22,481 nt of DNA from a virus, in IMG/VR virus record IMGVR_UViG_3300030107_005733, positions 1-22,481 of that record; one strand, written 5' to 3'. Below, one piece after another: positions 3,082 to 21,958 of the stretch; the first letter of the stretch is position 1, and each line of letters opens with the position of its first letter. The position numbers and the translations under genes are program-made. The notes below the pieces were generated by a model. The model searched no databases. It was not told the DNA's origin and worked only from the letters and a program-made list of their open reading frames with translations.

Positions 3082-3119
3082 CAAACTTTAACCCTTAAAT
3101 AAAATTTTAATATAGATAT

Positions 3120-3148
3120 AATATAACCAATTATTATGATTAAGTCAA
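3120..3148 (-). promoter_or_regulatory. Sigma70-type promoter for the primase / Mre11-Rad50 operon
   Basis: On the minus strand a -35 box TTGACT (3148-3143) is followed after exactly 17 nt by TATATT (3125-3120), preceded by TGGT. The -35 overlaps the last codons of the RuvC-like gene. Five other copies with the same geometry occur in the window, which makes chance unlikely. Transcription would start near 3113, about 30 nt before the primase ATG. Confidence 0.75.
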
Positions 3149-3736
3149 GGCTTTTTCTTTTTTGGTAGTGTTCAATTCCAATTGAGGTGGGAGTATTTCT
3201 GCAGCTCTTGCTCTTGCAATAACAACTGCATCACTCACATCATATGCTTCTTTACTAAATTCGTTTTTTGTTTTCATCAAAGGTAGGAGTTCTTTTATTT
3301 CGGGGTGTAACTCTATCACTCTTCTGAGAATAAAGTCTTTTGACTTTGTGCCGCGTGGAACCTTACAATCAGCTAAATTTCTTGCTCTTATAACATTCAT
3401 CATAGTGGGGTATTTATTTAACATCTCATAACATTTGCGTTGGATTATAGCGTTGAAAGCAGCGAGTGTGATTATAGTTTTAATATTAGATTTACCGGAT
3501 ATAAACTTTGTGATTATATCTTCTATTACTACTTCAGTTATTTTATCAGTGTTTTCGTTCAAAGTATCTAAAACTTCAAACATCACATTAACTTTTTCAT
3601 GTAGACCTTTTATGTTTTTTAATGCTACATGACCTGCGGTTTCTAATTTGTTTTGATTAAGATTCCATATGGCGTAGCCAGTACAGAAGGTGCTAACATC
3701 TAGTGCTAGTAAATATCCCTCTGTACTGACTGCCAT
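3140..3736 (-). CDS. RuvC-like Holliday-junction resolvase / RNase H-fold endonuclease
   Basis: This is a 198-residue protein with the RuvC arrangement of acidic residues on an RNase H fold. D13 sits in the first strand (LLALDVSTFCTGYA), E72 in the VVIEDI strand, and D166/D169 in the final helix segment AYDVSDAVVIA. A basic stretch with KVPRGTKSKD lies around 125-134. RuvC-like enzymes cut four-way junctions; in phages they debranch replicating DNA before packaging, the role T4 gives to the unrelated endonuclease VII. The ATG is the first codon choice after an in-frame stop three codons upstream. It has no strong ribosome-binding site, so translation may be coupled to the preceding outer-membrane protein gene, which ends 6 nt upstream. 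The last codons overlap the -35 box of the primase promoter. The exact substrate cannot be told from sequence. Confidence 0.72.
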   Translation of the reverse strand: MAVSTEGYLLALDVSTFCTGYAIWNLNQNKLETAGHVALKNIKGLHEKVNVMFEVLDTLNENTDKITEVVIEDIITKFISGKSNIKTIITLAAFNAIIQRKCYEMLNKYPTMMNVIRARNLADCKVPRGTKSKDFILRRVIELHPEIKELLPLMKTKNEFSKEAYDVSDAVVIARARAAEILPPQLELNTTKKEKALT

Positions 3737-5433: not shown

Positions 5434-6417
5434 CTACTCGTAATTCATAATCAAAACCTCTTCACCTGTGGATTGATCTACTCCTTCTTTAGCGCCTGCA
5501 GGTTTCACAAACTCTTTTGTTTCCCAATGAAATTTATCTTTTGGATACATATCACTTAGTTCAGAGAAATCATAATAAGATAATGAAAACTTACCCTTCA
5601 TGTTGTGAAGACAACTCATCAACTCATAGTGCTGTTCTCTACCAAAGCGATGTAGACTATAATATAACTCAGTACTCCAATAAGGTGGGTCAACATAAAA
5701 ATATGTAGTTTTAGAATCATATTTTGCAATAACTTCTTCAAACGACATATTCTCACAAGTATCAATTTTTTTTAGTTTAGGAATAACTTTATCGCTGGTA
5801 AGTCTATTATAGAAGGCTTTAAACTTGGAGTTATACTTTCCTTTATAATCTTGAAATTCTGAATCCACTGGGTCTATACCAGAGAATGAAGAAGTAAGAA
5901 TATATGCATACTTCATCGCAGCTACTTGGTTCTTTTGACCTGCTTTAATCTTATCACCAAAAACATCTCTCATATTATTATTGTTACACTGACGAGATGC
6001 TCGTGCATGAGTCAACGCTTCATTCAACGCTTTACGTTGCTTACCTTTAATATTTTTGTCCTCTAAGATTTTTCTTATCTGTTTGATAGCAAAGTCTGTA
6101 TAGAATAAACTTTCCTTACAATCATAGAAATAATCTCTACAAGATTCTGATAGTTCGGGTGAATCTTTGGTTTGTAAAGGTGGTTTCTTATTATCAATAA
6201 ACTTTGAGAATACTTTTGGGTGTGATGAGCATCGGAATAAATTAGTCATGTAAGGATTAAAATCATTATAGATAGCCTTATCACATCTTTCATGTATGTC
6301 TGAATTAACATATACCCAATACGCACCACCAAAAACTTCTACATATGTATCACATTCGGGAACAAAACCACTGATCCAATCTGCCATTCTTGCTTTTCCA
6401 CCAATATAACTTAAGAT
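5434..6417 (-). CDS. dam: D12-class (Dam-like) DNA adenine methyltransferase, apparent AUC start
   Basis: This enzyme would transfer a methyl group from S-adenosylmethionine to N6 of adenine in phage DNA, probably to evade host restriction or time DNA processing. Counting from the proposed start, it has the N-terminal Dam motif SYIGGKARMADWI (residues 3-15), an AdoMet-site strand YVEVFGGAYW (about 25-34), YNDFNP, and the catalytic DPPY at 243-246. The first ATG is at 6387, but starting there would delete the conserved GGK motif, which is encoded in frame upstream. Between the in-frame stop at 6468-6466 and ATG 6387 there is no ATG, GTG or TTG. GAGG lies 5 nt before the ATC codon at 6417, which I take as the start (327 aa). 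The gene is first after the promoter at 6451-6479. If ATG 6387 is used instead, the product is 317 residues and probably impaired. Confidence 0.85.
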   Translation of the reverse strand: MLSYIGGKARMADWISGFVPECDTYVEVFGGAYWVYVNSDIHERCDKAIYNDFNPYMTNLFRCSSHPKVFSKFIDNKKPPLQTKDSPELSESCRDYFYDCKESLFYTDFAIKQIRKILEDKNIKGKQRKALNEALTHARASRQCNNNNMRDVFGDKIKAGQKNQVAAMKYAYILTSSFSGIDPVDSEFQDYKGKYNSKFKAFYNRLTSDKVIPKLKKIDTCENMSFEEVIAKYDSKTTYFYVDPPYWSTELYYSLHRFGREQHYELMSCLHNMKGKFSLSYYDFSELSDMYPKDKFHWETKEFVKPAGAKEGVDQSTGEEVLIMNYE

Positions 6418-6450
6418 AGTAACCTCGTTTCTAAAAAATTTTATATATAT

Positions 6451-6479
6451 AATATAACCATACCTCTACATATTGTCAA
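6451..6479 (-). promoter_or_regulatory. Sigma70-type promoter for the methylase gene
   Basis: The minus strand has TTGACA (6479-6474), 17 nt, then TATATT (6456-6451) preceded by TGGT. The TGA stop of the upstream gene is embedded in the -35 box. The predicted transcript starts near 6444, leaving a leader of about 27 nt before the proposed ATC start. Confidence 0.8.
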
Positions 6480-6796
6480 GGATTTTCCTCATCATCATCA
6501 AATATTTTTAGTATATCATCCATTGTATGTAGGGGTGGCTTTTTTTCTTTCTTTATTTGTTCCACTCTATCTTTCTGTTCTTTGGTTAATCCTTTATCTA
6601 ATATTTCTTTAAACTCTTCATCTGGAGTAAGGTCAATATAAAATTCTCCTTCTTCAAAATCATTCATATGTTCTAAGACTTCAATGTATTCTTCTAAATC
6701 TCCGATATGTTGCAGAAGTGTTTCTTGTTTTTCCATAAGCTTAGAAATAATATTTATCAGTTTGCTAGCATTATCCATCTTAGATTTTCTGCTCAT
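6476..6796 (-). CDS. Unknown acidic coiled-coil protein (106 aa)
   Basis: This 106-residue protein is very rich in Glu, Asp and Lys. Residues 8-45 form a likely coiled coil (ASKLINIISKLMEKQETLLQ onward), followed by a charged linker and an acidic C-terminus DDDEENP. No family is recognised. The Shine-Dalgarno GGAGAA lies a few bases before ATG 6796 and the gene starts 9 nt after the MscS-like gene ends. Its TGA stop lies inside the -35 box of the methylase promoter. Confidence 0.65.
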   Translation of the reverse strand: MSRKSKMDNASKLINIISKLMEKQETLLQHIGDLEEYIEVLEHMNDFEEGEFYIDLTPDEEFKEILDKGLTKEQKDRVEQIKKEKKPPLHTMDDILKIFDDDEENP

Positions 6797-7277: not shown

Positions 7278-7724
7278 TTATTTCCTACTCTCGTTAATAA
7301 GTGAAGAAATATTTTCTTTAACTTGATTATAGTTATCAACTAATTCTTTTTCTTTTATACGAACCATCGTATAGCCTTCTTTTTTTGCCAACCAATTTTT
7401 AGTTATATCGTTTTTCTTTGCCATCATACCAGCATAACTAGGTTTGTTCCCTATATCACCATGCCAATATGCTCCATCAACTTCTATCAAAACTTTATAA
7501 TCTATTAAACTAAAATCATAATATCTCCACCCTTGCATATATTTTAAAGGTTTTTCTCTCTCATACTCTATCTTTAATTCATCTAACATATCAGCAACAA
7601 TTCGTTCTAAACTAGACATTTCTTTTTTAGCTCGGTTCATTGGCGGATACTTTTGAGAATCGCTTAATTTTTGCCTTAACCTTTTTACTTTATTTTTATT
7701 ATATTTTGGTTTTTTCTTAGGCAT
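7278..7724 (-). CDS. PD-(D/E)XK / Vsr-like endonuclease
   Basis: The 148-residue product has a basic N-terminus (MPKKKPKYNKNKVKRLRQK) for DNA contact. A compact nuclease core follows: a helix with E40 (SSLERIVADMLDEL), D70 in YYDFSLIDY, E81-V-D83 in VLIEVDGAYWHGD with H88, and a helix with D106 and K109 before EGYTMVRIKEKEL. This is the pattern of the very-short-patch-repair / DUF559 / EDxHD group of PD-(D/E)XK nucleases, which includes mismatch nickases and free-standing homing endonucleases. Which activity applies cannot be decided here. AGAGGAAC sits just before the ATG, supporting this start although it overlaps the end of the upstream gene by 40 nt. It lies between small unknown genes, a common place for a mobile endonuclease. 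Confidence 0.7.
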   Translation of the reverse strand: MPKKKPKYNKNKVKRLRQKLSDSQKYPPMNRAKKEMSSLERIVADMLDELKIEYEREKPLKYMQGWRYYDFSLIDYKVLIEVDGAYWHGDIGNKPSYAGMMAKKNDITKNWLAKKEGYTMVRIKEKELVDNYNQVKENISSLINESRK

Positions 7725-9735: not shown

Positions 9736-12700
9736 TTAGTATAACTCTTCTTGTAATTTTAATAGATTATCCTCGCTCAATAAACTATTTCTATCCCAAG
9801 CTAAACTTCTACCGAAATTGTCAGATTGGAGTTTCACAGCGATGATTTTGCCAGGAATCAAATCATCTTCACAGTATTGTAATTTATTGTGCCACACCCT
9901 AAAACTACTACCATCCTCTGCTCTAACATTAGCGTATGGTTTACCCTTCTTTGTTTTTAACATCTCTACCGTACTAATCTTTGTCCAAAAATATGGTGAG
10001 TTCTCATCGTCTTCATTATACTCAGATATGTGTGATAGGTCTAATTTACTAACAACCTGCTTCATCATTTCTATCCGCTTAGTGTTTTCTGAGACTCTAA
10101 AGCCGATGCTCTCCAACTCAAAAGAGATCAACTCTTTCTCAGTGTATTCTTCTTCTGCGTTAATGTGAAATACATCCATAAGCCTATCAATCTTTTTACT
10201 ATTGATAAGGTCATCAAAAACAATACTATCATCATCAAATATTTTAACCATTAACTCTTTAAACTTCTTTTTGGTCTGTAACGAAAACTGATTGAATACA
10301 TCGGTAATATCACACAACGCCTTTCTACTAAACGTCTTGCCACAAAGCACCATTTCATCAAACAAACCTAACTTAATAAGCATGTGTAAGGCTTTATGTG
10401 GAATCATCTTAAGTTCCAAATTATCGCGATAGAACTCTGTAAAATCCAACCATCCACTTCCAGGCCGAGCCTTCTCTATTTTGTTCAACACACTATCGCC
10501 TAAACCTTTAATGTTCTTTATACCGATAGTGATGTTTTCTTCGCTAACGGAAAAACCTTTTGAGAAAGTATTGATATCGCCCAAACTGACTAGTGGTTCA
10601 TCTAACAACCTTCTACCCATCGTCAAACCTAATGCGATTTCTTCATGCTCACCAAGATGGTCGTTCAACATAACTTCAGTAAACTCAGCAGGGTGCTTGG
10701 CCTTGAAATAACTAGTCCAGTAAGCGAGAATACTATAGCTAATAGCGTGAGACTTGTTGAACAAATACCCTGCGTTGTCAATCAACTTCTTTGCAACCGC
10801 TCGTGTTTCTTCTACAGAGAGAACCATCTTATCGGGGTATGCGAATAAGTTTTCTTCCAAATACTCATTACACTTTTTATGATCCATACTTTCGGCAAGT
10901 TTTCTCAAGATATCGCCTTGACCAAAGTTCAACCCAAGCAAGTTAAACATCTGAATGAATTGCTCTTGGTAAATCATAATGTTTTCAGTGGGCTTCAAAA
11001 TATCATCAAACAAAGGGTGATGATCGTTTGTTGATTCTTCTTGTCCATTACGTCTACGTAGAAACGCTTCTGTAGCACCTAACTTAATAACGCCAGGACG
11101 GTAGATCGCATTGACAGCAGCAATATCTTCTACATTTCTTGGAACCATCTTCTGTAAACAACGAGTTATGTTTGCTCCACCAAACTGAAACACACCATAC
11201 GTATCACCTTCACACAACAAGTCATACGCCTTATCATAATACTTTTGTTCTTCTTCATCCAATAGATCTCTATCAATTGGCATTGTGTAAATATCCTCAA
11301 TGGACATACCAACCTTCTTCATCACTTCCATAACTACGGATAAAGTGGAAAGACCCAACATATCAATCTTGAGAAACTTCATCTTGGCCAATTCATCTAT
11401 CTGCCACTCAGTAACCAAATCACCTTCTTTAGACTTACGTAACGGCATAACGTCATAGAGTGGTTGTGATGATATAATCACACCGCCGCCTGCAATCGTT
11501 TGGTTTCGTAGATTACCAATAAGTGTATCAATAGTTGTGATAAAGTCTTCGGCTTCGGTTGGTTCCAACGATGATATAAACCCTTTAACATCCTTGTTAC
11601 TGTTCATTAATTCAGTAAACGTAGTCAAATCTTTGTTTAGTGAAATATGCCCACTAATCGTTTTCGCAATCTTGTTAGAAAGTTTGAAGTCAATGCCTTT
11701 GTCTTTCGCCAAATCACGAAATAAAGTATTAACAGAATAACGGGTATAGGCAGCAACAGAAGCAATATTAGCATCGCCCCACTTGGAGGCCACGTAGTTT
11801 TTAACATCTGGTCTACGGTTGTCTTGAAAGTCATTATCAATGTCAGGCTCCTTAATTCGTTCGGGATTCATAAACCTTTCAAAGAATAGGTCATACTTAA
11901 TTGGGTTAAGATGCGTAATACCTAACAGCCAACAAATCAACGAACCACTTGCACTACCACGGCCGGGAGACATGAGTATATCGTTTTCATATGCCCATTG
12001 TGTAAAGTCATTTGTTATAAGAAAGTAATCTACGTAACCTTTATCAGCAATCAACTCCAACTCTGTTTTCAACCGCTCAACATATTTAGAAATTTCATCT
12101 TCGGGAATAAGATTACTCTTTACCTTACTTTCCATACCTTTTTTCAATAGGTCTAAAATATAGGTCTTACTATCCTTAAAACCATTTGGAACATCAAACT
12201 TAGGTTCCTTCAAAGTATCAACATCAAGCTGTGCATTGCAACGACTAGCTATGTGTTTTGTAGACTCTATACCCTCATATAAATATTCATCACTAATGAT
12301 ATCACCCATACCTGCGTCATACCACTTTTGTATCATCTCATCCTCTGTGGCGAAGTGTAGTTTGTCTATACCTGCTTCATCAAACTTACCATCAGTATTA
12401 AGTCGCCATAAAAAGTTGTGAGTCTCATGGTGGTCTTGTTCTACATAGTGAACATCATTAGCTAACAGTGTCTTTACGTCATACTTCTTTCTAAACATCT
12501 CAATAAGAACTTGGTTGTATTCTCGTTGAGAATCTAAGGCATGTGGGTGTAGTTCAATGAAAAAACGATCTTTACCGAAAACCTCAAGCATATCTTCAAA
12601 CCACACACTCATGTCATCAATCTTCTTACTCTGTAACATTCTCGCCATGGGAGAGATGACGCATGTAGTTGTCGCAATAACACCTTTGTTATACTTCCTT

Positions 12701-13137: not shown

Positions 13138-13163
13138 AATTCTCCTTAAAAGTTATATATAAT

Positions 13164-13192
13164 AATATAACCAATACTGCCCGTTTTGTCAA
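13164..13192 (-). promoter_or_regulatory. Sigma70-type promoter for the DNA polymerase gene
   Basis: The minus strand has TTGACA (13192-13187), 17 nt, then TATATT (13169-13164) preceded by TTGGT. The TGA stop of the upstream gene lies within the -35 box. The predicted start near 13157 gives a leader of about 20 nt before the polymerase ATG. Confidence 0.8.
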
Positions 13193-13692
13193 GTGTTTTG
13201 TTCAACATCATACCATTTTGGTTTAGTGGCTTCATCCTTCCATACAGCAATGTTTTTCTTTTCTGTTTGGTAATACTTTCTATAAGCGGCGATACTATCA
13301 CCCTCTACCTTACAGTATGGGGGCATACATTGTGGTGGTTGAGTGAAATCGCCGTAGGGTAAATTTTTTGGTAAGTGACTAAGGGCGTGTGCAAACTTAG
13401 TATCACATAGATGTATCTTATCATATCGGGATGCGTATTCTTCACATAGTCCAATAAAGTGACGATACAACCAACTATAATTTTCTGATGTTTTTCTAGC
13501 CCAAATAGTAGACGGGTGATTTTTGTAAGCTGCTCTATATATAGGTTGACCTGCTACCACATCTGCGTTATCAAGAACCCTATGAGCCGTACACAACATC
13601 TGTGCAGACTCTAAGGGCATCTTGACAACATGCTTATCTAATAAGTTGGAGGCAGCTACGGTAGGGTTTGGGTCTACATAAAATATATTGAT
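13189..13692 (-). CDS. Conserved marine-phage protein of unknown function, apparent AUC start
   Basis: Translation upstream of the first ATG (13620) stays open and gives INIFYVDPNPTVAASNLLDKH then VVKMPLESAQMLCTAHRVLD. This matches my memory of the N-terminus (MNIF..D..P, DKHVVKM..ES.Q.L..AHR) of a protein common in marine T4-like phages. The coding region therefore starts upstream, but there is no ATG, GTG or TTG between the in-frame TAA at 13710-13708 and ATG 13620. AGGAG precedes two consecutive ATC codons (13695 and 13692) by 5 and 8 nt; I take ATC 13692 as the start (167 aa). Later conserved-looking parts are NHPSTIWAR, YSWLYRHFIGLCEEY and KVEGDSIAAYRKYY. The function is unknown; it is a soluble protein rich in His, Trp and Tyr. 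Its stop overlaps the polymerase promoter. Confidence 0.75.
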   Translation of the reverse strand: MNIFYVDPNPTVAASNLLDKHVVKMPLESAQMLCTAHRVLDNADVVAGQPIYRAAYKNHPSTIWARKTSENYSWLYRHFIGLCEEYASRYDKIHLCDTKFAHALSHLPKNLPYGDFTQPPQCMPPYCKVEGDSIAAYRKYYQTEKKNIAVWKDEATKPKWYDVEQNT

Positions 13693-13722
13693 GATAAAAT
13701 CTCCTGTTTAAAATGTTTATAT

Positions 13723-13751
13723 AATATACGAAACTTTATCTAATTTGTCAA
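13723..13751 (-). promoter_or_regulatory. Sigma70-type promoter for the conserved phage protein gene
   Basis: TTGACA (13751-13746), 17-nt spacer, TATATT (13728-13723) on the minus strand, starting 4 nt beyond the stop of the ParB-like gene. The predicted start near 13716 leaves a leader of about 24 nt before the proposed ATC start. Confidence 0.8.
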
Positions 13752-13752
13752 G
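13723..13752. repeat. 30-bp direct repeat, copy 1 (promoter repeat)
   Basis: These 30 bases are identical to 14930-14959 in the same orientation. The two copies bracket the ParB-like gene and each contains a complete promoter, including the non-conserved spacer, so the identity goes beyond shared promoter boxes. Confidence 0.9.
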
Positions 13753-13755
13753 ACC

Positions 13756-14880
13756 TTACCTGTTGGGGTTATCTGTTAAAAAATCACTTAATGAAACAAA
13801 TAAAACACCTTTATCAATTTCATTTGTCATATCTTGAGGCACCCAACCTAAAAATTTTATTTGATCATCAATGGTTTTTTCTGCCTCTTTTCTATTTAAC
13901 TTATTGCTTCTCATAATAATATTAATAGCAATAGACCTGTACTTTTTAAACTTATCATATTGCTGTTGGCGTTTATCTCTAAGGAAAGAGGGTGCTGATA
14001 CTGTATCCTTGACAACAGATGCTATCTCCATCTTCATTGATGGGTCTTCTAAAACCTTAAAAAAATCTCTCATAAGGTAAGAATCAAATTCTGAAGTTTT
14101 GCCAAAATAAACCCTTTGTACTATACCATTTTCATTTGTTAATCGTTTTGAACTTTCAAACCCCTTTACTGAGTATTCACCCCAACCAATTATATCACGA
14201 GCATTATTAACAGCATTCCGTAATTTACTTTCGGAAAATGACATGATATGTTCTGCCACCACTTTTTTTTCAATTTGTTTGAATACCTTTTTTGCAACTC
14301 CGTCCTTTTGAGAGTCACTTCCAAAATTAGGAGCACATCGTTCAATTTCATTTAAAATTTCGGTTTTATCATGCTTAAGTCGCCCACTTGCGTTAAGTTT
14401 GAGCAAACTCTCAATTAAATCGTTTTCTGTGTTTTTGAATGCACTGCCGTGATCGTTCACAGACATTTGAAATTTTATTTCGGCAGCCTTGCTTTCAAAT
14501 CTAAAAACGTCCATCGGCCACATAGCTTCTGGTTGCTGTCGAACTATTTCTCTAAATTTTTCACCTCTAGCGAATCCACTAGACATTCTCGGACCGCTAG
14601 GTTCCATAACAACTTGAGGTATCATACATTCTGGTCTAAACCCCTTTGTCTTTAAATCACGGCCAATTTCACTAACCCTTTTATCAAGATTATCATCAGA
14701 TCTTATCTGATCTTGTTCGTAAATCAGAATATCTTTTAAGTAAAAAAATTCCATTCCAAGATGTTCTACACCTTCTATTTTATGTTCGTCACGAGCTGGC
14801 GGTTGCCAAGAATTGAAAGTATAGTTTTTCATTTCCCACCACTCTTTTGTATACTCGTTGCTTATTACTAATTGATTCAT
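13756..14880 (-). CDS. ParB-like nuclease-domain protein (tentative), repeat-flanked
   Basis: The 374-residue product has a region at about 50-145 that follows the ParB N-terminal pattern. It has 'IRSDDNLDKRVSEIGRDLKTKG', here split as IRSDDNLDKR and VSEIGRDLKTKGFRPE, then a strand IPQVVMEP, the turn SSGFARGEKF in the place of the ParB GERR/GHRR box, and a helix running to KAAEIKFQMSVND. The remaining 230 residues are helical and basic and I do not recognise them. ParB-like domains in phages bind or cut DNA or act as CTP switches; the activity here is unknown. The gene lies between two identical 30-bp repeats, each a promoter, so it looks like an exchangeable cassette. GGAGGAATAAGG precedes ATG 14880. 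Confidence 0.7.
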   Translation of the reverse strand: MNQLVISNEYTKEWWEMKNYTFNSWQPPARDEHKIEGVEHLGMEFFYLKDILIYEQDQIRSDDNLDKRVSEIGRDLKTKGFRPECMIPQVVMEPSGPRMSSGFARGEKFREIVRQQPEAMWPMDVFRFESKAAEIKFQMSVNDHGSAFKNTENDLIESLLKLNASGRLKHDKTEILNEIERCAPNFGSDSQKDGVAKKVFKQIEKKVVAEHIMSFSESKLRNAVNNARDIIGWGEYSVKGFESSKRLTNENGIVQRVYFGKTSEFDSYLMRDFFKVLEDPSMKMEIASVVKDTVSAPSFLRDKRQQQYDKFKKYRSIAINIIMRSNKLNRKEAEKTIDDQIKFLGWVPQDMTNEIDKGVLFVSLSDFLTDNPNR

Positions 14881-14929
14881 AAACCTTATTCCTCCGTGGA
14901 ATGTTTTGAATTAAATTCATTATGTTTAC

Positions 14930-14958
14930 AATATACGAAACTTTATCTAATTTGTCAA
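14930..14958 (-). promoter_or_regulatory. Sigma70-type promoter for the ParB-like gene
   Basis: TTGACA (14958-14953), 17 nt, TATATT (14935-14930) on the minus strand. The TGA stop of the gene at 14955-15461 sits in the -35 box. The predicted start near 14923 gives a leader of about 43 nt. Confidence 0.8.
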
Positions 14959-14959
14959 G
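14930..14959. repeat. 30-bp direct repeat, copy 2 (promoter repeat)
   Basis: Identical over 30 bases to 13723-13752, same orientation, 1207 bp apart. Recombination between the two would remove exactly the ParB-like gene and leave one intact promoter in front of the next gene. Confidence 0.9.
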
Positions 14960-15461
14960 GCTTTTTTACTTTCAAATATTTTTTATTTTCTTCTGTAAAT
15001 TTATCAAAGTATTTTGTATTCTTTAGATTTTGATGTGCTTTATTAAGTTCATCAACATACGCTACATTTATTAGAAAGTAGGGTGCATTGCTTCTTGTCT
15101 TTACACCGCCTACTTCAAATTCATCATCGGGGTGAAAGGTTATCACTTTTACATAACCCATCTTTCTTTTTCGCAACTCTCTATTAATATAATTTTGAAA
15201 TTTTTTATACTCATGCACCTTAATGTCAGATATGTGAGCGACAATCATGGACATATAGTTGTCTTCCATATCCCACTCATCTATCAAATCAAAAATAGAG
15301 TTTTCTTTACCAACTTCAAAAACCTCATATTTTAATTTACCAGATGCTCTTTCTTGTTTTACAAATGGACAGATAGGAAATCCACCAAAAGCTTCATTTG
15401 GAGTTGCAAGCCAATCTATATACTCATCTATTTTTGCAATTATTGTTTCTCTATCTTGCAT
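14955..15461 (-). CDS. Unknown protein (168 aa) downstream of dCMP deaminase
   Basis: From ATG 15461 the product is 168 residues (MQDRETIIAKIDEYIDWLAT at the N-terminus). It has a FPICPFVK segment, an alpha/beta middle (YMSMIVAHISDIKVHEYKKF), a strand GYVKVITFHPDDEFE and a strand YFLINVAYVDE, so it is probably a globular alpha/beta enzyme or binding protein. I recognise no family. GGAG lies 7 nt before ATG 15461, which is better placed than an ATG five codons upstream. The start overlaps the deaminase gene end by 22 nt and the TGA stop lies in the -35 box of the next promoter. Confidence 0.65.
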   Translation of the reverse strand: MQDRETIIAKIDEYIDWLATPNEAFGGFPICPFVKQERASGKLKYEVFEVGKENSIFDLIDEWDMEDNYMSMIVAHISDIKVHEYKKFQNYINRELRKRKMGYVKVITFHPDDEFEVGGVKTRSNAPYFLINVAYVDELNKAHQNLKNTKYFDKFTEENKKYLKVKKP

Positions 15462-16301: not shown

Positions 16302-18152
16302 TTAAGTTATTTCACACGATCCACCAGCACATGCTAGCTCACCTGTGAGATTAGTATTATCTATTAGTTCCACCACTCCACTTAAATCCACCTCTCTTAA
16401 GTTATTAAACAAATCTTTAAAAGTTACTTTATCTATATCTTCAAAAGGAGCTTGTTTATAAGATCCGCCAAAATAAGGAAGTACAGATAGTCCGTTATAA
16501 TAATCACGGTTATCCCACATCCACTTGCCTACTTCTTCCCATTCATCTTCCTTAACGGAAACAGTGCAAGAAACATTATGTGTATTATTACCATTGTTAT
16601 GAGCGGGAACAATCCAACGATTGTAAATGTCTTTTACTCTTTCTAACAACTCTACCGATGTTTCATGTCTTAATATACCGTCACTTGGTGCTTGTTGAGG
16701 TATAGATATTACTGCTTGTTGATCAGGCTTAAAAAAATCATCTTCTAATAGTTCGGGGTGATTAACTTTTAAATAATTGTAAATAGCTTCATTCTTACCA
16801 ACTCTAATACGCCGAATATAATAGTCATTGTGCCATGCGTGAATACCACTTGAAGTACCTAAAACACAAGACGTAGTTCCACTTGGCTTCACTGTAGTAA
16901 TTCTTGCAGCTGTATTAATACCAAATTCAGATGCATAATATTTATTAGTTGATACGGCCATTTCTGCAGCTTCTTCTAAATCTAACTTTTGTACACGACC
17001 ACTTCCAATACCTGTCATACCAATCCCAAGTAAAGCATCCTTTTCAGTAGTTCGGCGCCATACATCACGTAAATAATGAAAGTTAGTGTAAGTAGCTTGA
17101 AGAGTTCCGATAAGAGATGCAGCAGAAACTCTTTCATTGAGTTCTTGTTGTGTCTCTACATCACTTACATTTACCTCACAAAGATTACAAAATTGAAAAG
17201 GTCGTAAGGCAATTTCTGCACAAGGATTAGTTCCCCACTCAGAATCGTTTGTAAAATAAACGCCAGGCTCTCCTGCGCCACTTTCTTTTACTTTTTCCCA
17301 AATATTGAAAAAATCTTTTTTCTTAACTCTATGTCTAACCACCACTGCCGAATTGTTTGCTCTTGCTCTTTGCGGTTCTGTTTCCCACCAATCTCCGAAT
17401 TTAGATTGGAGCATTTCTTTATCATCAAGGGAAAACAAACTAATAGTAGCAGACCTACGGATACCACCAGATAATACTGCATCTGCAATCCAACAGTTAA
17501 TATCGTGCACTTCCAAAGTAGATAATTGATCTCCATGTTCTTTCCTATCAAAAATTCTTTTTATATTATGAACACAATCTTTTAGTGGTTGTGGGCCGGG
17601 AGCCTTACCGCCACTAGTTACTAACAAAGCACCTTTTGGTCGAACACTAGTAAAGTCAAATTCTGGTTCGGGCTTATCAAGAAAATATGACTTCATCAAC
17701 ATTTTTATACAATCAGCCCAACCTTCAATACTATCACCGACAAGGTAACGGCGTTTTTTTGTGGGTTTAGTAATAGTTGGTAATTTTTCTACATGATGTT
17801 TTTGCACCGAATAACCCACACCAGTTCCACCTAATAGTAGAAACATCACTTCACTAAACGCTCTGTAATCATCCATCGGTAAATAAGCACAATTGTATAT
17901 ACGAGAAGGTGTCTGTTTTATAGCACCACCTGCAAATTGTAAAGAACGCATAGACGGTAAAACTTTTTTATCATATACTAACTCATAAGCCTTTTCTATA
18001 TTTGACTTAATGTTAGGAAAGTTAGAGATATGCATATCACGATTGCGTGTTATTAATTCTTCCCATGTTTCGCGGCGTTGCTCTGCCGGAAGATACCTTG
18101 CATATTTCATATGCACAGTAATTTCTGATAAAATTTGTTGACTTATATCCAA
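16302..18152 (-). CDS. nrdJ: Class II (adenosylcobalamin-dependent) ribonucleotide reductase, monomeric type
   Basis: This enzyme reduces ribonucleotides (triphosphates in the monomeric Lactobacillus-type family) to deoxyribonucleotides using a B12-generated thiyl radical, so it works with or without oxygen. The sequence shows the disulfide partners C88 (RIYNCAYL) and C322 (FQFCNLCEV), the radical-site motif N309-P-C311-A-E313, LLLGGTGVGYSV (105-116), VKPSGTTSCVLGTSSGIHAW, and the C-terminal redox pair C608/C613 in CAGGSC. At 616 residues it is shorter than the 739-residue L. leichmannii enzyme. No small subunit or activase is expected for this class. The start codon is TTG 18152, with GGAG 7 nt upstream. 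It follows the FmdB-like gene by 2 nt. The host must make or import cobalamin. Confidence 0.93.
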   Translation of the reverse strand: MDISQQILSEITVHMKYARYLPAEQRRETWEELITRNRDMHISNFPNIKSNIEKAYELVYDKKVLPSMRSLQFAGGAIKQTPSRIYNCAYLPMDDYRAFSEVMFLLLGGTGVGYSVQKHHVEKLPTITKPTKKRRYLVGDSIEGWADCIKMLMKSYFLDKPEPEFDFTSVRPKGALLVTSGGKAPGPQPLKDCVHNIKRIFDRKEHGDQLSTLEVHDINCWIADAVLSGGIRRSATISLFSLDDKEMLQSKFGDWWETEPQRARANNSAVVVRHRVKKKDFFNIWEKVKESGAGEPGVYFTNDSEWGTNPCAEIALRPFQFCNLCEVNVSDVETQQELNERVSAASLIGTLQATYTNFHYLRDVWRRTTEKDALLGIGMTGIGSGRVQKLDLEEAAEMAVSTNKYYASEFGINTAARITTVKPSGTTSCVLGTSSGIHAWHNDYYIRRIRVGKNEAIYNYLKVNHPELLEDDFFKPDQQAVISIPQQAPSDGILRHETSVELLERVKDIYNRWIVPAHNNGNNTHNVSCTVSVKEDEWEEVGKWMWDNRDYYNGLSVLPYFGGSYKQAPFEDIDKVTFKDLFNNLREVDLSGVVELIDNTNLTGELACAGGSCEIT

Positions 18153-18373: not shown

Positions 18374-18618
18374 CAAAGACTCCTTTGACCAACTTTTTCT
18401 ACACGATGTATAAATTCTGTATTACCATTATCATAAGCTAACAGAACTTCATATTCAACTTCTTCGTTAGTATAGAGTCTTTCGTTTTCTATCATTTGAT
18501 TTGCCATGCGTATTACATCATCTTTCTTAACATCTCTACGAGATGCAGAATATACGTGAGATATTGTCGTATCAACATTGCCCCATCGGTGTGTTTTAGT
18601 AATTGTGAATCTTTCCAT
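18373..18618 (-). CDS. Unknown small protein (81 aa)
   Basis: The 81-residue protein starts with beta-like segments (MERFTITKTHRWGNVDTTIS), then a charged helix (DDVIRMANQMIENERLY) and a final strand EYEVLLAYDNGNTEFIHRV. It is probably a small alpha+beta domain; the family is not recognised. AAGGAT lies before the ATG, overlapping the helicase stop, and the gene is tightly coupled to both neighbours. Confidence 0.65.
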   Translation of the reverse strand: MERFTITKTHRWGNVDTTISHVYSASRRDVKKDDVIRMANQMIENERLYTNEEVEYEVLLAYDNGNTEFIHRVEKVGQRSL

Positions 18619-20956: not shown

Positions 20957-21202
20957 TTACCATATCACCATATTAGTTATGAGGCGTTTTACAAATACTC
21001 TATATAATATAAGAAAGTCTTTCCATGTTGTCAAGTCTTTTCTTTGTTTTGCTAACAGTTCTTTTTCTTTCATTTTTGCTAATCTAATTGACCATCTTTT
21101 TTGCCTTAGTTCGCTTAATTTAGCACTGCCTGTATACCAAACGAAATACTCAATAAAGGCCCAAAACCAAATTCTAAGTGTGATTAACATAATAAAAACC
21201 AT
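20957..21202 (-). CDS. Small membrane protein, unknown; overlaps a promoter
   Basis: The 81-residue product has a hydrophobic N-terminus (MVFIMLITLRIWFWAFIEYF) followed by a strongly basic helix (LRQKRWSIRLAKMKEKELLA), the shape of a small membrane-anchored protein. It begins 8 nt after the 3D-domain gene but no clear Shine-Dalgarno is seen. Its last 25 codons run through the -35 and -10 boxes of the exonuclease promoter, unlike other promoters here, where the upstream gene stops at or before the -35. It may therefore be a chance ORF or a gene whose 3' end was reshaped by promoter insertion. Confidence 0.45.
   Translation of the reverse strand: MVFIMLITLRIWFWAFIEYFVWYTGSAKLSELRQKRWSIRLAKMKEKELLAKQRKDLTTWKDFLILYRVFVKRLITNMVIW
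21006..21034 (-). promoter_or_regulatory. Sigma70-type promoter for the exonuclease / helicase operon
   Basis: TTGACA (21034-21029), 17 nt, TATATT (21011-21006) on the minus strand. The predicted start near 20999 gives a 47-nt leader before the flap-nuclease ATG. With no further such promoter until 14930-14958, it may drive the helicase, RNR and deaminase genes as well. Confidence 0.75.
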
Positions 21203-21885: not shown

Positions 21886-21958
21886 TACTCCCAACGGGAC
21901 TTGAACCCGTATTTTTGCCTTGAAAGGGCAATATCCTAACCGATTAGATGATGGGAGC
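21886..21958 (-). tRNA. tRNA-Glu (anticodon UUC)
   Basis: The 73-nt cloverleaf folds by eye. The acceptor stem GCTCCCA/TGGGAGT has a G-U first pair. A D-arm ATCT...AGGAT follows. The anticodon stem TTGCC/GGCAA has loop CTTTCAA giving anticodon TTC, and the T-arm is ACGGG-TTCAAGT-CCCGT. The discriminator is A. The terminal CCA is not encoded, so host CCA-adding enzyme is needed. It would read GAA/GAG, codons heavily used in the Glu-rich phage proteins here. Confidence 0.92.

Follow-up and report, generated by a model that had tools for sequence, protein, structure and literature searches.

The window analyzed here is a stretch of 22,481 nt (positions 1 to 22,481 of IMG/VR record IMGVR_UViG_3300030107_005733, itself a fragment of a phage genome). 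On its minus strand, at 13189..13692, lies a gene for a 167-residue protein that appears to begin with ATC. The promoter, at 13723..13751 on the same strand, consists of TTGACA (13751-13746) and TATATT (13728-13723) separated by 17 nt, with 11 of 12 matches, and a similar promoter precedes the orthologues L088, L090, L179, L193, L262, L268 and L291. A short leader of about 25 nt follows (13693..13716, minus strand), as the original prediction had proposed, and contains the Shine-Dalgarno sequence AGGAG at 13705-13701. The leader is predicted to be open, folding less than shuffled sequences do (z +1.57), and we rejected control by a leader hairpin because the fold prediction leaves the leader unstructured. 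Promoter repeats matching CTTGACA-N17-TATATTAT occur in the window at 3116-3163, 6447-6498, 13162-13211, 13720-13757, 14927-14964 and 21002-21053; the copy at 14927-14964 is 92% identical over 38 nt to the one at 13720-13757.

On the minus strand, AGGAG is followed by ATTTT, two adjacent ATC codons and then AAT ATA TTT TAT GTA. The two ATC codons lie 5 and 8 nt past AGGAG, the spacings that had been reported for them, at 13693..13695 and 13690..13692, respectively. The in-frame stop upstream of the gene is TAA 13710-13708, and we found no ATG, GTG or TTG in frame between it and the ATG at 13618..13620 (ATG 13620), which agrees with the original reading. This ATG is codon 25 and becomes the listed start if only ATG, GTG and TTG are allowed. 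Initiation at the first ATC would add one residue. We do not favor it because the conserved methionine of the family aligns with the second codon; at the position of the first ATC, relatives show ATT, GTT, CTT or AAA.

In the 80 closest relatives in IMG/VR, which were confirmed by tblastn and are about 45-54% identical, the codon aligned to the second ATC is ATG in 77, GTG in two and TTG in one. The upstream segment INIFYVDPNP is thus the N-terminus of the family, as had been suggested, and when we looked among the relatives for homologues that lack it, the segment was present in them. In a 49-member alignment, N2, I3, F4, K24, M25 and E28 are invariant. Because the pattern used to collect some of these members required N-I-F, the set of 80, on which no such pattern was imposed, is the cleaner evidence. 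Three related genomes (G001, G002 and G003), whose polymerase, reductase and helicase proteins are 61-85% identical to those of the window phage, carry orthologues encoding proteins 47-55% identical to the window protein, each with ATC at the same place after GGAG. Across 360 family members, the initiator position is occupied by ATG, GTG, TTG, ATT or ATC and nothing else; CTG and ATA are absent from it. Since only these five codons occur and three related genomes keep ATC, the placement of ATC is more than chance. An AUH codon (H standing for U, C or A) occupies the aligned initiator position behind a Shine-Dalgarno sequence with no canonical alternative, the arrangement by which infC-type genes are recognized.

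Translation might instead begin at ATG 13620, with the upstream homology untranslated or vestigial. This is the first canonical codon in frame, but it has no Shine-Dalgarno sequence, and the aligned start of all relatives sits 24 codons upstream of it. Starting there would remove residues 1-24, including the invariant N-terminus, and with them the invariant or near-invariant residues 2-4, D19, K20, H21 and K24. We consider this start very improbable and rejected it on conservation. From these comparisons we are highly confident that ATC 13692 is the initiator of the gene.

A single metagenomic contig is in principle open to error, and the unusual codon might reflect a misread base or a decaying gene. 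A second contig, L221, shares its promoter, Shine-Dalgarno sequence and ATC with the window, after which its coding region diverges. At positions 11000-11313, L221 is almost the same as the window from the upstream gene up to about the 110th coding base, and the point where the two part resembles a recombination breakpoint within the gene. Comparing the window gene with orthologues whose start is ATG or TTG gives a dN/dS ratio of about 0.1. The ratio is equally low in pairs where both members carry ATH (ATT, ATC or ATA), with dS above 1, where synonymous sites are near saturation. Because ATC recurs in L221 and in G001-G003 and dN/dS is about 0.1, both error and decay are ruled out for practical purposes; we give them almost no weight, and the doubt that the original prediction cast on a sequencing error was justified. 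The comparisons indicate a gene under purifying selection and strongly support the proposal of a real AUC start, one that orthologues retain as ATC or ATT.

The protein encoded by this gene resembles T4 endonuclease V (denV, PDB 2end), the pyrimidine-dimer glycosylase. It matches the PF03013 Pyr_excise profile with 32.6 bits, against a curated cut-off of 23, and phrog_624 with an E-value of 4e-54. A sequence search of the PDB returned no relative, and T4 endonuclease V surfaced by fold search alone. The AlphaFold2 model is confident (pLDDT 94.9), and its top match was 2end both in Foldseek (E 0.06, probability 0.80) and in VIA-align (Z 8.1, 3.5 Å over 116 residues; the next unrelated row scored 3.9). 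E28, invariant in the 49 members, lies nine residues past the aspartate of a D-x-H motif. Catalytic Glu23 of T4 endonuclease V has the same nine-residue spacing, and we take E28 to be its equivalent. Fold and spacing are thus shared, while the two proteins differ in that they are only 16% identical, the window protein has about five more residues before the D-x-H motif, and its residue 2 is Asn in place of catalytic Thr2. We describe the protein as T4-endonuclease-V-like and as a candidate glycosylase/AP-lyase acting on UV-damaged DNA. The nucleophile of T4 endonuclease V is the N-terminal alpha-amine of Thr2, exposed after removal of the methionine. Because the VIA-align range opens with model residue 1 on 2end residue 2, the residue incorporated at ATC may occupy the position of the catalytic amine. 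Asn at residue 2 makes a poor substrate for methionine removal, so Met1 may stay on the window protein.

How common are such starts in the endonuclease family? A scan for GGAG, 3-9 nt and ATH followed by the codons for N-I-F-(Y/F) matched at least 120 loci. Among the matches listed, about 70 encode family members whose initiator codon is ATT (mostly) or ATC, many of them only 34-47% identical to the window protein. In a sample whose pattern contained neither start codon nor Shine-Dalgarno sequence, the starts were ATG in 106, GTG in nine, ATT in two and TTG in one; requiring GGAG while allowing any codon gave 77 ATG, 20 GTG, nine ATT, two TTG and one ATC. ATH therefore accounts for 2 of 118 (~2%) in the unbiased sample and 10 of 109 (~9%) with a GGAG Shine-Dalgarno sequence, and is a minority state in the family. 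None of the 12 isolate phages that we checked has an ATH start; all use ATG or GTG. Within the window's own clade the codon alternates between ATC (five), ATT (one), ATG (five) and TTG (one). In a quick tree of 285 rows, the distribution of ATH takes 20 changes to explain. Supported branches force at least 10 of these, and ATH forms clusters, occupying 25 of 32 rows in one clade. ATH rows were collected for this tree with the GGAG pattern, so its ATH frequencies are not estimates. The AUH start is thus retained within sub-clades yet has switched at least 10 times across the family, and marine and lake relatives have apparently switched to AUU or AUC repeatedly at the same codon. One ATT-started member lies in an uncultured Bacteroidetes genome bin (L624); it is 75% identical to L120, and the contig is probably from a phage.

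We also asked which features accompany ATH. It occurs in 10 of 109 members with a strong Shine-Dalgarno sequence, compared with 0 of 93 without GGAG (Fisher p 0.002), and the gap to the upstream gene is larger in ATH members (median 58 nt versus 1-3, p ~0.0015). We rejected an own promoter as a specific correlate, as its frequency in ATH members did not significantly exceed that in canonical members with GGAG (p 0.41, with too few independent pairs).

The window phage has a second gene with an apparent ATH start. Its D12 adenine methylase gene (5434..6417, minus strand) has ATC at 6417-6415, 5 nt past ACGAGG and in frame with the conserved xxSYIGGKxRMA N-terminus. Orthologues carry ATT (L083), ATA (L085 and L086/L087) or ATG (L084) at the aligned start, which bears out the suggestion that the methylase is a parallel case. 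Outside the window clade, YIGGKxRM-type methylases start nearly always with ATG. Two relatives, L595 and L562, whose leaders resemble the GAGG leader of the window (AAACGAGGTTA.., AAGAGGTTTTATA), start with GTG and TTG, which are likewise weak start codons. Near the methylase gene, at 7278-7724 (minus strand), lies a small protein with weak matches to DUF559/Vsr-like endonucleases.

Across about 28 other genes shared within the clade, which together offer ~170 distinct canonical start sites in alignment, no ATH start was found. In the gene at 18376, four ATA codons fall opposite the listed start, but they lie one codon before the true ATG. In clade contigs, ATH behind a strong Shine-Dalgarno sequence occurs, background apart, in the endonuclease and methylase genes only, and when 5.25 Mb of loci were scanned mechanically, this arrangement was nearly confined to the endonuclease family. 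Because the other shared genes start with ATG, GTG or TTG, we rejected a wholesale change of the genetic code or of start-codon usage in the window phage. An altered initiator tRNA, which the original prediction had proposed looking for, is not needed for an AUC start, and none is encoded in the 22-kb window, whose sole tRNA is a tRNA-Glu (TTC) at 21886-21958 (minus strand). The original prediction of a non-canonical start used by this phage was right in part: two of ~30 shared genes carry one, but the family uses ATT or ATC in many unrelated phage contigs. The putative AUU and AUC starts, with AUA in the methylase, are recurrent and gene-specific, a pattern that reaches beyond one phage but falls short of a phage-wide habit. 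A ribonucleotide-reductase-like gene at 16302-18152 (minus strand) starts with TTG, as do 21 of its 28 distinct relatives (ATG in seven), and this is apparently another conserved weak start in the window clade.

These observations suggest that, in phages, weak start codons serve to limit certain enzymes that act on DNA. In the mechanism that we propose, the gene's own sigma-70-type promoter would produce an mRNA with a short leader, on which a strong, accessible Shine-Dalgarno sequence would position AUC 13692 for initiation. The ordinary initiator tRNA would most likely read this codon, and the first residue would for that reason be formyl-Met. AUU, AUC and AUA are near-cognate starts mismatched at the third base only, and because of that mismatch initiation at them would be far slower than at AUG. 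The weak codon would then serve as a translational throttle, keeping a DNA-cutting or DNA-modifying enzyme scarce despite a good promoter and ribosome site. Such a throttle would have evolved many times among the endonucleases, and it would have arisen in this clade's methylase as well. We regard this explanation as a whole, in which a recurrent AUH start holds down DNA-acting enzymes, as the probable one, though with considerable reserve. It builds on what the comparisons show, namely the codon's place, conservation and recurrence, purifying selection and the restriction to endonuclease and methylase genes; that AUH is read as formyl-Met, that output is low and that dosage control is the purpose are inferences. 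Counting against it are the low frequency of ATH in the unbiased sample, the ATG or GTG starts of all 12 isolates and the lack of a significant link between ATH and a promoter among GGAG-bearing members.

The same codons could also be tolerated drift, in which ATG is lost at times, a strong Shine-Dalgarno sequence and abundant mRNA suffice, and the weak codon brings no advantage. That ATH is rare overall, is found only with a strong Shine-Dalgarno sequence and swaps with ATG or GTG between near-identical proteins is what drift would produce. Against it, ATC and ATT are kept across synonymous distances above 1 (L088-L090, L120-L154), one clade has ATH in 25 of 32 rows, and no such drift is seen elsewhere among the genes of these phages; we judge drift unlikely, if worth keeping in view. 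A third reading is regulatory, a possibility that the original prediction had raised. IF3 represses non-canonical starts (PMC5472188; PMC13068326), AUH among them (PMC5472188), and AUU, AUC and AUA include the infC start codons of different bacteria. An AUH start might accordingly be used only while IF3 is in short supply relative to 30S subunits, timing the enzymes by infection stage or host state, and these phages have the feature in two genes whose products act on DNA. Sensitivity to IF3 would accompany any AUH start, however, and need not be its reason; we find such a switch doubtful. The fuller version, a repeatedly evolved phage switch placing AUU, AUC or AUA on DNA-repair and DNA-modification genes so that their synthesis follows the host's IF3-to-ribosome balance in infection, seems equally improbable.

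AUU, AUC and AUA starts have been described in a handful of cellular genes. The bacterial infC gene, which encodes translation factor IF3, has an AUU or AUC start through which IF3 exerts autocontrol. As in infC, AUH in the phage family stands at the position of the initiator methionine and is conserved between relatives. Unlike infC, the phage gene encodes an unrelated product, and the family flips often between ATG or GTG and ATH; IF3 control, a feature of infC, would be hypothetical in the phage family. The phage starts also recall sigR of Streptomyces (GTC) and rnhC and infC of Listeria (ATC and ATT), in which rare start codons are fixed, and the rnhC product likewise acts on nucleic acid. 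The Listeria infC ATT and rnhC ATC starts have been confirmed, and ATT and ATA starts in this organism are functional but yield less protein, in the order ATG > ATA > ATT (PMC13068326). Whereas sigR, rnhC and infC are cellular and experimentally confirmed, the window starts belong to phage genes and are inferred from comparison. In the mostly open-access literature that we searched, there was no report of AUH starts in phages or of a phage family gaining them repeatedly. Gene finders limited to ATG, GTG and TTG clip the conserved N-terminus, and such starts are therefore systematically missed.

Natural pairs within the family bear on the throttle reading. L171 and L177 (ATT, with AAGGAG or GAGGAG) have the same promoter as L509 (ATG, with a weaker Shine-Dalgarno sequence), and their proteins are 97-99% identical. 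Similarly, L176 has ATT with a consensus promoter and AGGAGG, while L043 has ATG and no Shine-Dalgarno sequence. Both comparisons fit a throttle, and such near-identical ATT/ATG pairs make the purpose of the weak start codon directly testable. Against a throttle, the nearest orthologues of the window gene itself (84-89%) keep ATG behind a similar promoter and AAGGAG or GGAG, so its codon was weakened without visible compensation.
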